This document shows positions 722 to 5,482 of a stretch of 64,000 nt of DNA, piece after piece. Location: NCBI RefSeq assembly GCF_034314085.1, contig NZ_JAVIWI010000001.1, forward strand, positions 4,526,001 through 4,590,000. Direction: 5' to 3'. This DNA is from Undibacterium sp. 5I1 (lineage in GTDB: Bacteria; Pseudomonadota; Gammaproteobacteria; Burkholderiales; Burkholderiaceae_D). A program made the position numbers and the translations under genes. The notes under the pieces were generated by a model. The model saw only the letters and a list, made by a program, of their open reading frames with translations, did no database searches and was not told the origin of the DNA. Position 1 is the stretch's first letter. Each line of letters opens with the position of its first letter.

Positions 722-1462
722 ATGATAGCTTGGCGTTTTATACGTATCATCGTTCACTTGTTTGCGGGCATGCTCACCTGCGCGGCGATTTTTCCATGGA
801 CTAGCACTGCAACGCACGAGGCGCTAATCCGCCGCTGGTCTAAAAACTTACTTACCATTTGCAAAGTCAGAGTGCGCTTGATTGATCGCGCAGCCGACTC
901 ACCGTCAGCGCACGCGTCTTCCAACGTGCTGGTTGTATCCAATCATGTTTCCTGGTTAGATATTTTCGTATTAAATACGCTGCAACCCTGCCACTTCGTC
1001 GCCAAATCCGACATCCGAAAATGGCCACTGGTCGGCTGGCTGTGCGAAAAGGCGGGCACGATTTTTTTAGCCCGCGGCAAGCAACGCGAAGTACGTCGCA
1101 TCTATGAAGGCCTGGTACATCAGATCGAAGCAGGCAAACGCATCGCCTTTTTTCCAGAAGGCACCACCGCAGCACAGGGTGCAATTTTGCCGTTCCACGC
1201 CAATCTGTTTGAAGCCGCCATCGAAGCCCGCGTCCCGGTCCAACCCTTTGCCATCCGCTATGTCGATGCTCAAGGAGCATTGCACACCGCAGCGGATTTT
1301 ATCGGCGAGATGACCTTTGTCGAAAGCATGCGACTGATTTTGCAAGGCGGCGGCATGACAGCCGATCTGATTCGTCTACCACTCATTTCAACTGAAAACG
1401 CACACCGGAGAGAGGTAGCACAAGCGGCTTGGGTATCTGTCGGCGAGGGCTTAGGTTCGTAA
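722..1462 (+). CDS. plsC: 1-acyl-sn-glycerol-3-phosphate acyltransferase
   Basis: A 246-residue PlsC-type acyltransferase that converts lysophosphatidic acid to phosphatidic acid at the inner membrane. It has a hydrophobic N-terminus (residues ~1-27), the acyltransferase block I NHVSWLD with catalytic His75 and Asp80, and the glycerophosphate-binding block FPEGTT at 144-149. The length is normal for the family. It sits downstream of pyrC on the same strand, but two repeats fill the 275-bp gap. The ATG at 722 has only a weak purine stretch upstream, and no better start is visible. Confidence 0.93.
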   Translation: MIAWRFIRIIVHLFAGMLTCAAIFPWTSTATHEALIRRWSKNLLTICKVRVRLIDRAADSPSAHASSNVLVVSNHVSWLDIFVLNTLQPCHFVAKSDIRKWPLVGWLCEKAGTIFLARGKQREVRRIYEGLVHQIEAGKRIAFFPEGTTAAQGAILPFHANLFEAAIEARVPVQPFAIRYVDAQGALHTAADFIGEMTFVESMRLILQGGGMTADLIRLPLISTENAHRREVAQAAWVSVGEGLGS

Positions 1463-1527
1463 GCTCAATAATCGATACAAATTTTTACTTCTGGCCGCTA
1501 CGTATCGAGCACAGAAGTGACAGATTT

Positions 1528-1556
1528 TTTCCAGTGTTTAAAAGAAACATTATAGA
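1528..1556 (+). promoter_or_regulatory. Possible sigma-70 promoter of the borosin cluster
   Basis: TTTCCA (1528-1533) and TATAGA (1551-1556) are separated by 17 bp in the 142-bp gap before the 70-residue precursor gene. Each hexamer matches consensus at only about four positions, so this is a suggestion. Confidence 0.3.
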
Positions 1557-1604
1557 ATCCTTACGGCTGTACCTTATCTTTAACCCAACCAAAGGAAAAC
1601 GATT

Positions 1605-1817
1605 ATGTCAAAACTATTGGATTATTTGAATGTGCTCGATAAAGATGCTTCCGCTCGTGATGCACACAACGCAGATCCTGCAGGCGCAATGACCACTTTT
1701 GGTTTGACTGAAGAAGAGCAGGACGCGTTTATGTCGGGTGATAAAAATGCCGTCGCAGATTTGATTGGTATTTCTGCCGATGAACTTCCGAGCATTGAAG
1801 TTACTCAAGGAGTTTAA
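1605..1817 (+). CDS. Split-borosin precursor peptide (SonA-like)
   Basis: A 70-residue soluble protein with no signal peptide. It has a good ribosome site (AAAGGAAAA at 1591-1599) before the ATG. The N-terminal ~58 residues look like the helical borosin-binding domain, which has a LigA-like fold: spaced matches to the remembered Shewanella SonA precursor include MSxL, the central P-x3-M, GLT-x-E, an A-x-M-x-GD block (residues ~41-46) and a Leu-x-Gly near 53-55. The C-terminal tail PSIEVTQGV follows Pro62 and aligns with the SonA core region (L-V-I-S-H-G). By that register, Ile64 and Val66 would be the N-methylated positions. A SonM-type methyltransferase lies two genes downstream. The identification is inference from family resemblance plus context, and the core boundaries are unproven. 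Confidence 0.82.
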   Translation: MSKLLDYLNVLDKDASARDAHNADPAGAMTTFGLTEEEQDAFMSGDKNAVADLIGISADELPSIEVTQGV

Positions 1818-1825
1818 AATTTAGA

Positions 1826-1846
1826 TTTAGAATCTTCTATTCTAAA
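1826..1846 (+). promoter_or_regulatory. Hairpin between precursor and second gene of borosin cluster
   Basis: Perfect 8-bp stem TTTAGAAT / ATTCTAAA with a 5-base loop, 9 bp after the precursor stop codon. No U-tract follows (the next bases are AAAACAC), so it is not a classic terminator. It could protect the 3' end of a short precursor mRNA or attenuate downstream expression. The stem is AT-rich and weak. Confidence 0.4.
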
Positions 1847-1869
1847 AAACACTTGGAAGGGGACGTATT

Positions 1870-3606
1870 TTGAAAGTGACTGTATCAATTATTTTTCTGA
1901 TGCTACTGACTTTTACATCCTCTGTATTTGCAGATAGTGCCGAAGAAATTGATCAACAACTTCAACTCTTTTTACAATATATAGACCGGGATATAGCAAA
2001 GGCCACTGTTGTATTGCAACATTTAACAGCCGAAAAAATACAATTTACTCAAGAGCAATCTAATAAATTTGTATTGTATAAAGCTTCATATTTAGGATTT
2101 GTGGGGCTTCATAAAGAGCGTATTGATATTGTTCAGTCAGTAATCGGAAATATAACTGATCAGAATCTTAAAGTTAAATTTTTAAATCAACTATCCGCAT
2201 CTTATACGGCGCTAGGAGAATATGACAATGCACTAAATGCAATGAATCAAAGCATTTTATTACTGCCAACGATAGACAGTTACACCGCACAAATCGGTAT
2301 TCTCCATTCGGCTGCAACTCTTCTATCTTCTCTACGCGCTTATGATGATGCGTTATCTTATGCTGACAGGATAATTAGCCTTCCCAGCCCCCAAGGTAAT
2401 TTCCAAGCTAAATGTATCGGCTATGCGAATAAGGTACAGATCAATTTTGAACGTGGAAATCATGCTGATGCTCTTTCTTTAATGAAAGATGCAATCGACA
2501 GTTGCAACGCTAATGGTCGGAAAAGTATTGTGCTGTTTCTTAGGGGTTACGAGGTAATTGATTTAATTGAGGAGCACTCATATCAACAGGGAATCAAGCT
2601 GGGGCTACCTCTACTGATTGAATATTCCAAAGCTGATCAAAAATTAAATAATTTTTGTGAACTAGAGGAGGCCATAGCAAAGGCGTATCTGAAAATTGGG
2701 AATTTCTCGCTTGCAGAGACTCATGGTCTAAGTGCGTACGAGCATGAAAAAATAAATCAGTCTATGCAAGTCAGGCAAAAAATTAATACGACTATGGCAC
2801 TCATTAAGCGCGCTCAAGGGCAGCTAGCTGCTGCTTTAGAATATTCTGACGCTGCATTAGTACTTAAAGATAAAGTATTGAATGAGCAATTGCAAAAAAG
2901 CGTTGCCTACCAACGTGTCAAGTTTGATATGCAGGATAAAGCTAATCAAATGAGTTTGCTGGAGGAGAAAAATAAGGTTCTTCGTATAGAGCAACAATTA
3001 GAAAAGCGTAATAATCAATTGTTGCTGATAGCAGTAATTTTTGTCATGGGATTGTTGCTATCCATTTTGATCTGGTTGATGAAAACCCTGGAACAAAAAA
3101 ATCGCTTTCGTCAATTTTCCCAAACAGATGGCTTAACGCAGGTCGCAAACCGTATGCACTTTATGACTTGTGCGACCGATATTTTTGAAAAAAATTCTAG
3201 TGGGATGAGTATCATTTTGTTCGATATGGATTTGTTTAAAAAAGTGAATGACACTTTTGGTCATGCTACAGGTGACTGGGTCTTGAAGACAGTGACCGAG
3301 GTAGTGCAGTCTCAGCTCCGTAAAGTAGATTTGTTCGGACGGCTTGGAGGTGAGGAGTTCGCCATTTGTATGCCGGACTCGAATTCAGACACGGCCCTGC
3401 AGTTAGCAGAGCGCTGCCGCAATGCGATTGAATCTATTGACACCACCGCAAGCGGTCATCAATTCAAATTGTCCGCTAGTTTTGGCGTCGCCAGTTTTCC
3501 TGTCAGCCCAAATCGTACATTCAAAGCGACGCTGGAAGCAGCGGATCAGGCCTTATATTTGTCTAAATCTCGGGGGCGTAACTGTGTATCCGTCCATCAT
3601 CAGTAG
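1870..3606 (+). CDS. Exported TPR-repeat membrane protein with GGDEF diguanylate cyclase domain
   Basis: 578 residues. A Sec signal peptide ends near VFA-DS (residue ~22). A helical TPR-like sensor region, probably periplasmic, spans ~25-350. A coiled-coil linker precedes one transmembrane helix (~383-403), and a cytoplasmic GGDEF domain spans ~410-575. The active-site motif is GGEEF at 493-497, and an RxxD inhibitory site (Arg484-Asp487) lies five residues upstream, so an active, product-inhibited c-di-GMP synthase is expected. It starts at TTG (1870), supported by GGAAGGGGAC just upstream. It sits 52 bp after the borosin precursor and 21 bp before the methyltransferase, all on one strand, so it is probably co-transcribed. 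A functional link to the peptide is inference. The gene is more AT-rich than plsC. Confidence 0.9.
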   Translation: MKVTVSIIFLMLLTFTSSVFADSAEEIDQQLQLFLQYIDRDIAKATVVLQHLTAEKIQFTQEQSNKFVLYKASYLGFVGLHKERIDIVQSVIGNITDQNLKVKFLNQLSASYTALGEYDNALNAMNQSILLLPTIDSYTAQIGILHSAATLLSSLRAYDDALSYADRIISLPSPQGNFQAKCIGYANKVQINFERGNHADALSLMKDAIDSCNANGRKSIVLFLRGYEVIDLIEEHSYQQGIKLGLPLLIEYSKADQKLNNFCELEEAIAKAYLKIGNFSLAETHGLSAYEHEKINQSMQVRQKINTTMALIKRAQGQLAAALEYSDAALVLKDKVLNEQLQKSVAYQRVKFDMQDKANQMSLLEEKNKVLRIEQQLEKRNNQLLLIAVIFVMGLLLSILIWLMKTLEQKNRFRQFSQTDGLTQVANRMHFMTCATDIFEKNSSGMSIILFDMDLFKKVNDTFGHATGDWVLKTVTEVVQSQLRKVDLFGRLGGEEFAICMPDSNSDTALQLAERCRNAIESIDTTASGHQFKLSASFGVASFPVSPNRTFKATLEAADQALYLSKSRGRNCVSVHHQ

Positions 3607-3627
3607 TTTTTTATCTAAAGAACGTCT

Positions 3628-4455
3628 ATGTCCAATCAAAAGCAAGGTAAGTTAATTTGTGTTGGCACTGGTTTAAGAATGGCTGGGCATCTGACCCCAA
3701 TCGCTCAAAGCTATATTGAAAACAGCGATGTGGTCGTTGCTGTCGTGCCTAATATTTTTACCCGCAAATGGCTGCAAGATATCGCTAAAGAATATATTTG
3801 TTTGCTCGGCTATTACAGCGATGTCGAGATCGAAGGTAAAGATCGGCGTGATACTTATCGCCGTATGGCCGACACAATTCTGGATCAGGTGCGTGCCGGT
3901 AAAACTGTCTGTGCTGCGTTCTATGGGCACCCCGGCATTTTTGCCTGCATCGCTCACATGGCAATTGCCGATGCCAGAGCCGAGGGTTATAGCGCCGTGA
4001 TGGAGCCTGGCATTTCTGCAGAGGATTGTCTGGTGGCAGATATCGGGATTGATCCGGCCAAAACGGGCATGCAGTCTATGGAGACAACGCAGTTTATGAT
4101 CTACCAGCATGTGCTTGATCCAACCTGCCTACAAATCTTGTGGCAGCCTGGCTTAGCGGGTGATTTGAGCATGAAGAAGTTTGAGACCAATACCGCGCAC
4201 TTACAAATACTGGTGAATAAACTGGCTCGTTACTATCCTCTGGAGCACGAAGTTATTTTGTACGAGGCCGCCACCAATCCGATGGAAAAGACGCGTATTG
4301 ATAAAGTGCGTTTAGGCGACTTACCAACGGCGATGCTCAAAACAATTACGACGTTGGTGATCCCGCCAGCACAGACGATGCAATTGGATCAGACGATCGT
4401 GGATCAATTGAATGCGATTGCAGAGGCGAGTAGAGTGAGTCAGCAAGCAGCGTAA
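3628..4455 (+). CDS. Borosin alpha-N-methyltransferase (SonM-like, tetrapyrrole-methylase superfamily)
   Basis: A 275-residue SAM-dependent methyltransferase of the tetrapyrrole methylase fold. VGTG (12-15) and GHPG (100-103) are the SAM-site loops. The segment DRRDTY (72-77) carries the Arg73/Tyr77 pair, and Tyr63 lies upstream; together these match the catalytic Arg/Tyr set of borosin peptide-backbone N-methyltransferases. MEPGISAE, the QSxExxQF block and EVILYEA also agree with the remembered SonM sequence along its length. The enzyme lacks a fused C-terminal core, unlike fungal OphMA, so it should act on a separate precursor, here the 70-residue protein at 1605-1817. It would methylate backbone amides in the precursor tail. 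The alternative is a cobalamin or diphthamide-type methylase, but the DRRDTY and precursor pairing argue against that. Confidence 0.9.
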   Translation: MSNQKQGKLICVGTGLRMAGHLTPIAQSYIENSDVVVAVVPNIFTRKWLQDIAKEYICLLGYYSDVEIEGKDRRDTYRRMADTILDQVRAGKTVCAAFYGHPGIFACIAHMAIADARAEGYSAVMEPGISAEDCLVADIGIDPAKTGMQSMETTQFMIYQHVLDPTCLQILWQPGLAGDLSMKKFETNTAHLQILVNKLARYYPLEHEVILYEAATNPMEKTRIDKVRLGDLPTAMLKTITTLVIPPAQTMQLDQTIVDQLNAIAEASRVSQQAA

Positions 4456-4630
4456 GCTTGATTGCCTCGTTATGGAATTAAAACTATAGGATGCGCCATG
4501 CGCACTCTAAGGTTAAAAGCATCGTCCAATGATTATGCTGCTTGCAGGTCATTTTCGTGCCAGAAGCCGCAGAATGATTGGACACTCCGTTTGACATTTT
4601 TTAAATCAAAGTCGGATAGATCATCTAGCT

Positions 4631-5482
4631 TTAGCCCGGTTTTTGCTGCTGGGGGCAATCGACTTGTACTACGCTGTGATCATTAAGGCATACCGCCGTC
4701 AGCTTGCCACCCCAGACGCAGCCAGTGTCTAAACTCAACAAGTCGTCACGAATGATCAAGCCCAGTGTTGACCAGTGCCCGAAGGCAATCGGTTCGCCTG
4801 CGGTCTGACGACCTGGAACGTCAAACCAAGGGAAATAACCATCAGGCGTATCGCCCATGCCATCTTTGCTGGCAAAATCCATCAGCCCATCGCTGCTGCA
4901 AAAGCGCATGCGAGTGAGGGCATTGACGATGCAGCGGTAGCGGTCTGCGCCTTGCAGAGTATCGCTCCATTGATCGGGTGTATTGCCATACATCTGACTC
5001 AAAAAATCCACATAGTGATCACCGCGCAAAACCGTTTCCACCTCGTGAGCCAAGTTCAAGGCTTCTGTTATTGTCCATGCGGGAAAAACGCCAGCATGGA
5101 TTAGCAGATGACCTTGCTCCAACAAGGCGAGCGGGCGATGACGCAACCATGTCAATAATTCTTCCCGATCGGGTGCCGCTAAGATATCGTCGATGGTGTC
5201 GTTGCGATGGGCTTTGCGGATGCCGTTGGCGACGGCGAGTAAGTGCAGATCGTGGTTGCCCAGCACGCTATTTGCGCGTTCACCCAGACTGCGTATAAGG
5301 CGCAACGTGGCTAAGGACTTCGGGCCACGGTTGACCAGATCGCCCGCAAATAACAGACGGGGAGCCGGGGCTTGCTGCGGTACATCTTTGTCTATCAGCG
5401 CAATCAGTTCTAACAACTGATCATGGCAACCTTGGATGTCGCCAATGACAAATACCTTGTTAGATTGGGCTGAGGTAGTCAA
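4631..5482 (-). CDS. apaH: Symmetrical bis(5'-nucleosyl)-tetraphosphatase
   Basis: A 283-residue calcineurin-like phosphoesterase that hydrolyses Ap4A (and Np4-capped RNA) to two nucleoside diphosphates. The metal-site motifs appear in order: [34 protein letters not shown], and the ApaH-type C-terminal [13 protein letters not shown]. The start is TTG at 5482. It overlaps the hemH stop by four bases (TTGA), so translation is probably coupled to hemH. No terminator was recognised downstream, and 4456-4630 holds nothing I can name. Confidence 0.96.

Follow-up and report, generated by a model that had tools for sequence, protein, structure and literature searches.

Split borosins are made from a precursor peptide and a separate enzyme that methylates its backbone amides, and at the locus described here the gene for a putative receptor stands between the two. 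The locus lies in a 64,000-nucleotide stretch of the genome of Undibacterium sp. 5I1 (contig NZ_JAVIWI010000001.1, positions 4,526,001 to 4,590,000; hereafter the window), where three genes follow one another on the plus strand in the order precursor, tetratricopeptide repeat (TPR)-GGDEF gene and methyltransferase, flanked by an acyltransferase gene and apaH. The gene content, tight linkage, domain order and co-variation reported below are direct observations. On their balance we lean, by a modest degree, towards a split-borosin operon that doubles as a peptide signaling unit with the TPR-GGDEF protein as its receptor.

A type IV split-borosin operon in Undibacterium

The methyltransferase closely matches SonM of Shewanella oneidensis MR-1 (282 bits, E 3e-83; 126 of 254 residues identical) and keeps its active-site, lock and core-contact residues, with Y58, R67, Y71, Y93, F99, E146 and W166 all retained and only Q178, whose main-chain carbonyl is the named contact, replaced by K. 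A first-pass annotation made from the sequence had read the motifs VGTG, GHPG and DRRDTY in this enzyme, all of which are present, and had anticipated a tetrapyrrole-methylase match, which Pfam returns under the generic label TP_methylase. The precursor matches SonA at 25.7 bits (E 1.2e-4), and its structure model consists of five helices over residues 3-54 followed by a disordered end, with SonA as the best solved-structure match. The helical bundle, SonA-type borosin-binding domain and short C-terminal tail expected of this small protein are recovered.

That same annotation named as one refuting outcome an enzyme of the cobalamin, siroheme or RsmI type, and the small protein might correspondingly be a LigA-like subunit. 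Such an assignment could appeal to the generic Pfam name of the enzyme and to a Pfam LigA match to the precursor that stays below cut-off, but we consider it exceedingly improbable: CbiF/CobI chains score about 13 bits (E 0.3-0.4) against 282 for SonM, NCBIfam matches fall far below their cut-offs, and in the structure comparison the best SonA chains come ahead of LigA-type chains, whose root-mean-square deviation is larger. The locus is almost certainly, to judge from sequence and modeled fold, a type IV split-borosin operon. This is a known kind, and a widespread one according to PMC11285071, here found in Undibacterium, and the chemistry proposed earlier is supported.

In the SonM/SonA system, leader docking and N-to-C backbone methylation have been demonstrated, with methylation sites at L63 and I65 (PMC8429565). 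The window shares with it a separate SonM-type enzyme, a SonA-type precursor, a five-helix leader and a short tail, and by likeness to the SonA sites our guess is that its core would be methylated at I64 and V66. It differs in tail sequence and in its gene order; SonM relatives in the sampled gammaproteobacterial order do have a neighboring TPR-GGDEF gene. The precursor-like protein of 70 residues and the enzyme had been described as two genes apart on one strand; both open reading frames and the strand hold, but a single gene, left unnamed at the time, separates them. The window genome has one place each for enzyme, precursor and sensor (the last at E 1e-10), and no second enzyme or precursor was found elsewhere in it.

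The intervening gene encodes a TPR-GGDEF protein of exported type

Hydropathy, Pfam and the structure model together give a signal-like segment, a TPR sensor at residues ~23-378, a membrane helix at ~380-408 and a GGDEF domain at ~417-578 carrying GGEEF and an RKVD I-site. Among 26 betaproteobacterial rows (24 loci, with L039 and L076 contributing two copies each), GGEEF and the preceding membrane segment occur in all 26 and an RxxD I-site in 20, the window included, while the highest mean hydropathy over 19 residues in the N-terminal part ranges from 1.55 to 2.67. With a hydrophobic segment at the N-terminus and a single membrane segment ahead of GGDEF, the TPR domain is predicted from hydropathy to be periplasmic, and two sensor cysteines, invariant across 36 alignment rows, would suit a periplasmic disulfide.

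Fold comparison with VIA-align assigns the sensor to the TPR superhelix fold of the RRNPP receptors, such as Rap and NprR. The likeness stops at the fold, with identity of ~10%; the window sensor is of exported type with a GGDEF or kinase output and a putative ligand, whereas RRNPP receptors are cytoplasmic and bind an imported peptide.

Sensor and enzyme are linked in betaproteobacterial and gammaproteobacterial loci

Within the genus, the enzyme is present in 19 of 43 genomes and the sensor in 18, all of them among those 19, and all 20 sensor places lie within a few kb of an enzyme; in the one enzyme-positive genome without a sensor (G1057), a contig end cuts the enzyme. A family sample of 294 genomes contains 17 with an enzyme match, 14 of them at 64-100% identity, and the sensor occurs in exactly these 14 and not in the three at 33-39%, only the seven best candidates having been scored in some genomes. 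With loci that share a contig counted as one, 26 distinct loci were obtained from betaproteobacteria, and in 24 of them precursor, TPR-GGDEF gene and enzyme share one strand; the exceptions are L078, which ends inside the enzyme, and L074, whose precursor and cyclase frames are broken.

Betaproteobacterial loci also vary in copy number. Two precursor-cyclase units stand in tandem in L076 (1891-6023), two cyclases in L039 and two precursors in L050, and a second precursor precedes the enzyme in L041, L042, L043, L044, L075 and L077, the L043 copy being degenerate. The second precursor of L048 (6007-6336) continues into sequence resembling the last part of a GGDEF domain, which reads like what a deletion between two precursor-cyclase units would leave. 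Genome G1055 has, on another contig (L080 1-324), a second partial enzyme end with 96% DNA identity to the main copy, either a strain variant or an assembly overlap.

A search at E 1e-40 through 345 genomes of the gammaproteobacterial order to which G641 belongs found the enzyme in 83 of them and listed 126 places. Every other place was taken (n=63), yielding 60 new stretches, one identical to L056 and two within stretches already analyzed; together with L012, L054, L055 and L056 these form a set of 64 loci. An iterated profile detects a TPR protein no more than 4 kb from the enzyme at 62 of the 64 loci, on the same strand in 61 (exceptions L159, L183 and L189). A precursor could be identified at 57 loci, the seven others being L012, L159, L176, L183, L185, L188 and L189. 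The precursor directly neighbors the TPR-GGDEF gene in 39 instances, and in 36 of these -76 to 30 bases separate the two, the negative values arising partly from the choice of the first start codon. By locus, the output is GGDEF in 41, histidine kinase in 10, GGDEF and kinase in one, GGDEF plus a TPR-only protein in one, TPR-only or unassigned in nine and none in two. Two of those nine are not truly output-less: in L135 the GGDEF domain has a frame of its own, beyond the end of the TPR frame, and L173 is truncated by a contig end. Because the TPR protein stands beside nearly every enzyme while the outputs differ, the constant partner is a TPR domain with a signal-like start, and the part that follows it varies.

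This constancy bears on whether the locus is an ordinary split-borosin natural-product cluster, in which the TPR-GGDEF or TPR-kinase protein would sense something else and control the timing of the peptide or the state in which it is useful, biofilm for instance. Genes for GGDEF proteins and histidine kinases are often regulators of adjacent genes, RiPP (ribosomally synthesized and post-translationally modified peptide) clusters commonly have regulators of their own, and the observed relation of sensor and enzyme is one of linkage, binding being putative. Against it, the sensor domain stays constant and the outputs differ, TPR-only partners could not regulate by themselves, and the tail tracks the adjacent protein and neither its own leader nor the enzyme (below), all of which leaves the ordinary cluster a rather unlikely account.

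A second precursor class was seen among the gammaproteobacterial loci (L139, L141, L144-L148, L151, L153-L155, L164 and similar), which ends, after a conserved PAEDD motif, in a long acidic stretch and so differs from the short-tailed SonA type. Nine further loci with less similar enzymes (L051-L053 and L057-L062) give no match to the sensor profile, and the precursor profile touches L051, L052 and L062 among them. Two of the nine, L052 and L053 (genomes G210 and G235), hold the 33%-identity enzyme domain inside long open frames (~1190 and ~805 residues, respectively) that may encode fused borosins; the sensor profile found no TPR sensor near these enzymes.

Precursor tail and sensor vary together

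The precursor leader is conserved and the tail variable, with an identity of 0.68 over residues 1-46 against 0.20 for the tail in 37 chosen rows. Comparison of the window with its nearest relative, a metagenome-assembled genome (L002), delimits a block of high divergence that spans the precursor tail, the whole TPR-GGDEF gene and the first ~50 enzyme codons. Measured over 60-base windows, identity drops at position 1741 (near precursor codon 46) from 92% to 53%, and it has recovered to 90% by 3781 (near enzyme codon 52). Synonymous divergence (dS) is 0.23 for the plsC-like gene, 0.42 for the enzyme and 0.62 for the precursor leader, and the proportion of synonymous differences (pS) reaches 0.73-0.92 in tail, TPR and GGDEF and 0.67 in the signal segment. 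As window and L002 remain sisters in both the sensor tree and the GGDEF tree, the block is a diverged allele and not an import from a distant lineage.

The clearest case involves L042, L044 and L077. L042 and L077 are 83-100% identical in flanking windows, 98% in GGDEF and ~90% in the second precursor and spacer, and only 62% in the sensor and 48% in the tail; L042 and L044, by comparison, have tails one residue apart and sensors 85% identical. The sensor tree accordingly joins L042 with L044 (100/100) and rejects L042 with L077 (approximately unbiased test, p 1e-83), and in the GGDEF tree it is L077 that groups with L042 (98/96), a grouping of L042 with L044 being rejected (p 0.003), although the tested groups were named after the identity comparison and the p values are not those of a blind test. 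Tail and sensor appear here to have been swapped together, as in pheromone/receptor pherotypes. A related pattern separates L041 from L075 (enzyme 96%, GGDEF 98%, flanks 79-96%, leader 70%, sensor 66%, tail 58%).

Across 25 rows, tail distance tracks sensor distance when GGDEF, enzyme and leader are controlled (r 0.335, p 0.0005); GGDEF itself gives a lower value (r 0.13, p 0.06), and neither the enzyme (r 0.03) nor the leader (r -0.09) is significant. Peptide and sensor thus vary jointly between close relatives. The joint variation is weaker and mixed in the gammaproteobacterial set, where the tail likewise tracks neither enzyme nor leader in 37 pairs (two of 39 were dropped for lack of the motif), and where 22 acidic-tail loci give similar values for sensor (r 0.24, p 0.013) and GGDEF (r 0.28, p 0.008).

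Several observations weigh against a receptor matched to the peptide. In the 37 gammaproteobacterial pairs the correlation of the tail with the sensor (r 0.17) is no stronger than that with GGDEF (r 0.25), each at p 0.001, and in 15 short-tail loci the tail tracks GGDEF (r 0.33, p 0.002) and not the sensor (r 0.09, p 0.19). L042 and L077 also differ in mid-enzyme (64-80%), so the exchange was not confined to tail and sensor. The tail of P0002 is window-like, yet the sensor of P0024, on contigs of equal length, is 54% identical to that of the window. In L074, from a one-contig genome (G1045), the precursor and TPR-GGDEF frames are interrupted and the enzyme frame is open, as if putative signal and receptor decayed before the enzyme, unless these are assembly errors. 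LGN, which is no pheromone receptor, ties with Rap in the sensor fold comparison. The TPR proteins of seven gammaproteobacterial loci (L147, L163, L169, L171, L184, L187 and L190) lack an output domain, and four of these proteins, from L163, L171, L187 and L190, were checked in this respect. Finally, tail and sensor are physically adjacent, and linkage alone could make both diverge together.

This last point can be extended to the view that the precursor-cyclase stretch is a hot spot of recombination or mutation with no functional matching. The two genes are neighbors, 50-odd bases apart, and the divergence between window and L002 does extend over GGDEF and the start of the enzyme. The tail, however, is nearer still to its own leader, with which it shows no correlation, and in L042 and L077 GGDEF is 98% identical against 62% for the sensor and 48% for the tail. 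We regard linkage alone as possible but doubtful. Tail and sensor co-vary, and we infer functional matching as the cause.

The output-less proteins suggest a different role, in which the exported TPR domain would bind the peptide as carrier, chaperone or self-protection, any signaling output being secondary or reporting the peptide level. L169 has up to four exported-type TPR proteins in a row, and in L147, L163, L169, L171 and L184 a glycine-cleavage-like gene set adjoins the enzyme and one to four signal-bearing, output-less TPR proteins. With the TPR protein fused to GGDEF or kinase in 53 of 64 loci, and GGDEF signature residues kept in every betaproteobacterial row, we judge this role improbable.

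A proposed peptide-signaling function

In the signaling reading that we favor, the methyltransferase would bind the helical leader and methylate backbone amides of the short tail, and a host protease would release a tail of about 7-11 residues. The methylated peptide would reach the periplasm or the medium, perhaps aided by the membrane permeability that N-methylation can confer, a route invoked because no exporter gene is seen in the operon; no recurring exporter or protease gene was noticed in the portions of the neighborhoods that were read, and no systematic test was made. It would then be the ligand of the exported TPR domain encoded next door, whose signal may pass along the membrane helix and a long helix to the GGDEF domain, with a change in cyclic di-GMP (c-di-GMP) as the outcome. 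For the window core, methylation is predicted from sequence and fold, and cleavage, passage to the periplasm, binding and the c-di-GMP change are putative. Lineages would hold their own core and a matching sensor, exchangeable together by recombination.

More broadly, type IV split borosins of Pseudomonadota may be short, backbone-N-methylated peptide pheromones that perhaps cross membranes with no exporter of their own. Exported TPR receptors, joined to a diguanylate cyclase or a hybrid histidine kinase, would read them, and cores would be exchanged with their matching receptor alleles as cassettes; we consider this generalization evenly poised. If true, it would give split borosins a function and establish Gram-negative peptide quorum sensing that feeds c-di-GMP, adding a backbone-methylated peptide to the inputs of c-di-GMP and histidine-kinase signaling and providing a natural supply of matched peptide/receptor pairs. 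With a sensor gene in nearly every sampled SonM-type locus, co-varying with the tail, the purpose of borosins becomes a question of binding and reporter assays.

In the ComX/ComP and Agr pherotypes, the peptide gene and the sensor part of the receptor co-vary among close relatives and are swapped as a pair; these systems differ from the window in being Gram-positive, with histidine-kinase receptors and other peptide chemistry. A nearer precedent for the output is RcbB of Vibrio vulnificus, a TPR-GGDEF protein whose TPR domain restrains the cyclase until the product of a neighboring gene releases it, as summarized in the abstract of PMC12282931. That system thus provides a partner-released GGDEF domain, but the partner, RcbA, is itself a TPR protein and not a small precursor, and the abstract mentions no methyltransferase. 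A GGDEF-containing domain is named in the legend of Figure 1 of PMC11395268, tied to at least one drawn borosin type, so that the association of borosins with GGDEF is not wholly unseen; the legend states neither the borosin type nor the role of the domain and names no TPR sensor. A literature search, with the split-borosin surveys Imani 2022 and Cho 2022 outside its coverage, found no paper on borosins with Undibacterium or with diguanylate, none on split borosins with histidine kinases, and no proposal of a TPR receptor for borosins. What would be new, if the receptor reading holds, is the testable receptor role of the TPR-GGDEF protein, the borosin as such being a member of the known type IV.

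Locus layout and minor observations

Feature coordinates are collected in Table 1. The placement between plsC and apaH given earlier stands, the upstream acyltransferase passing the Pfam cut-off and falling just short of that of TIGR00530.

Table 1. Features of the split-borosin locus, in window coordinates.
Feature	Position	Strand	Details
Upstream acyltransferase (plsC-type)	722-1462		PF01553 above cut-off; TIGR00530 102.3 bits vs cut-off 102.95
SonA-type borosin precursor	1605-1817	+	70 aa, ATG start; leader (borosin-binding domain) residues 1-54, tail/core ~62-70
High-divergence block vs nearest relative L002	1741-3780	strand-less	Sliding identity and synonymous divergence; flanks well conserved
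Predicted core PSIEVTQGV	1788-1814	+	Precursor residues 62-70
TPR-GGDEF protein, putative receptor	1870-3606	+	578 aa, TTG start; Pfam GGDEF and TPR
SonM-type alpha-N-methyltransferase	3628-4455	+	275 aa, ATG start
apaH, downstream	4631-5482	-	

No Rfam RNA, riboswitches included, reaches its gathering score across the window, and a scan of 1400-4700 gave one chance-level match only. Sigma-70-like sites (6 against 7.3 expected from shuffles) and terminator-like sites (5 against 3.3) are unremarkable. A perfect 8-base inverted repeat, read by eye, lies at 1826-1846 in the gap between precursor and TPR-GGDEF gene (TTTAGAAT, a 5-base loop, ATTCTAAA) and might set the relative expression of the two. 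Upstream, at 596-706, a repeat of ~105 bases with inverted ends (acttacgcaaaa ... ttttgcgtaaatcct) resembles a miniature element; 40 matches at 75-100% identity were scored out of 144 candidates in the genome, two of them also within the range of the window.
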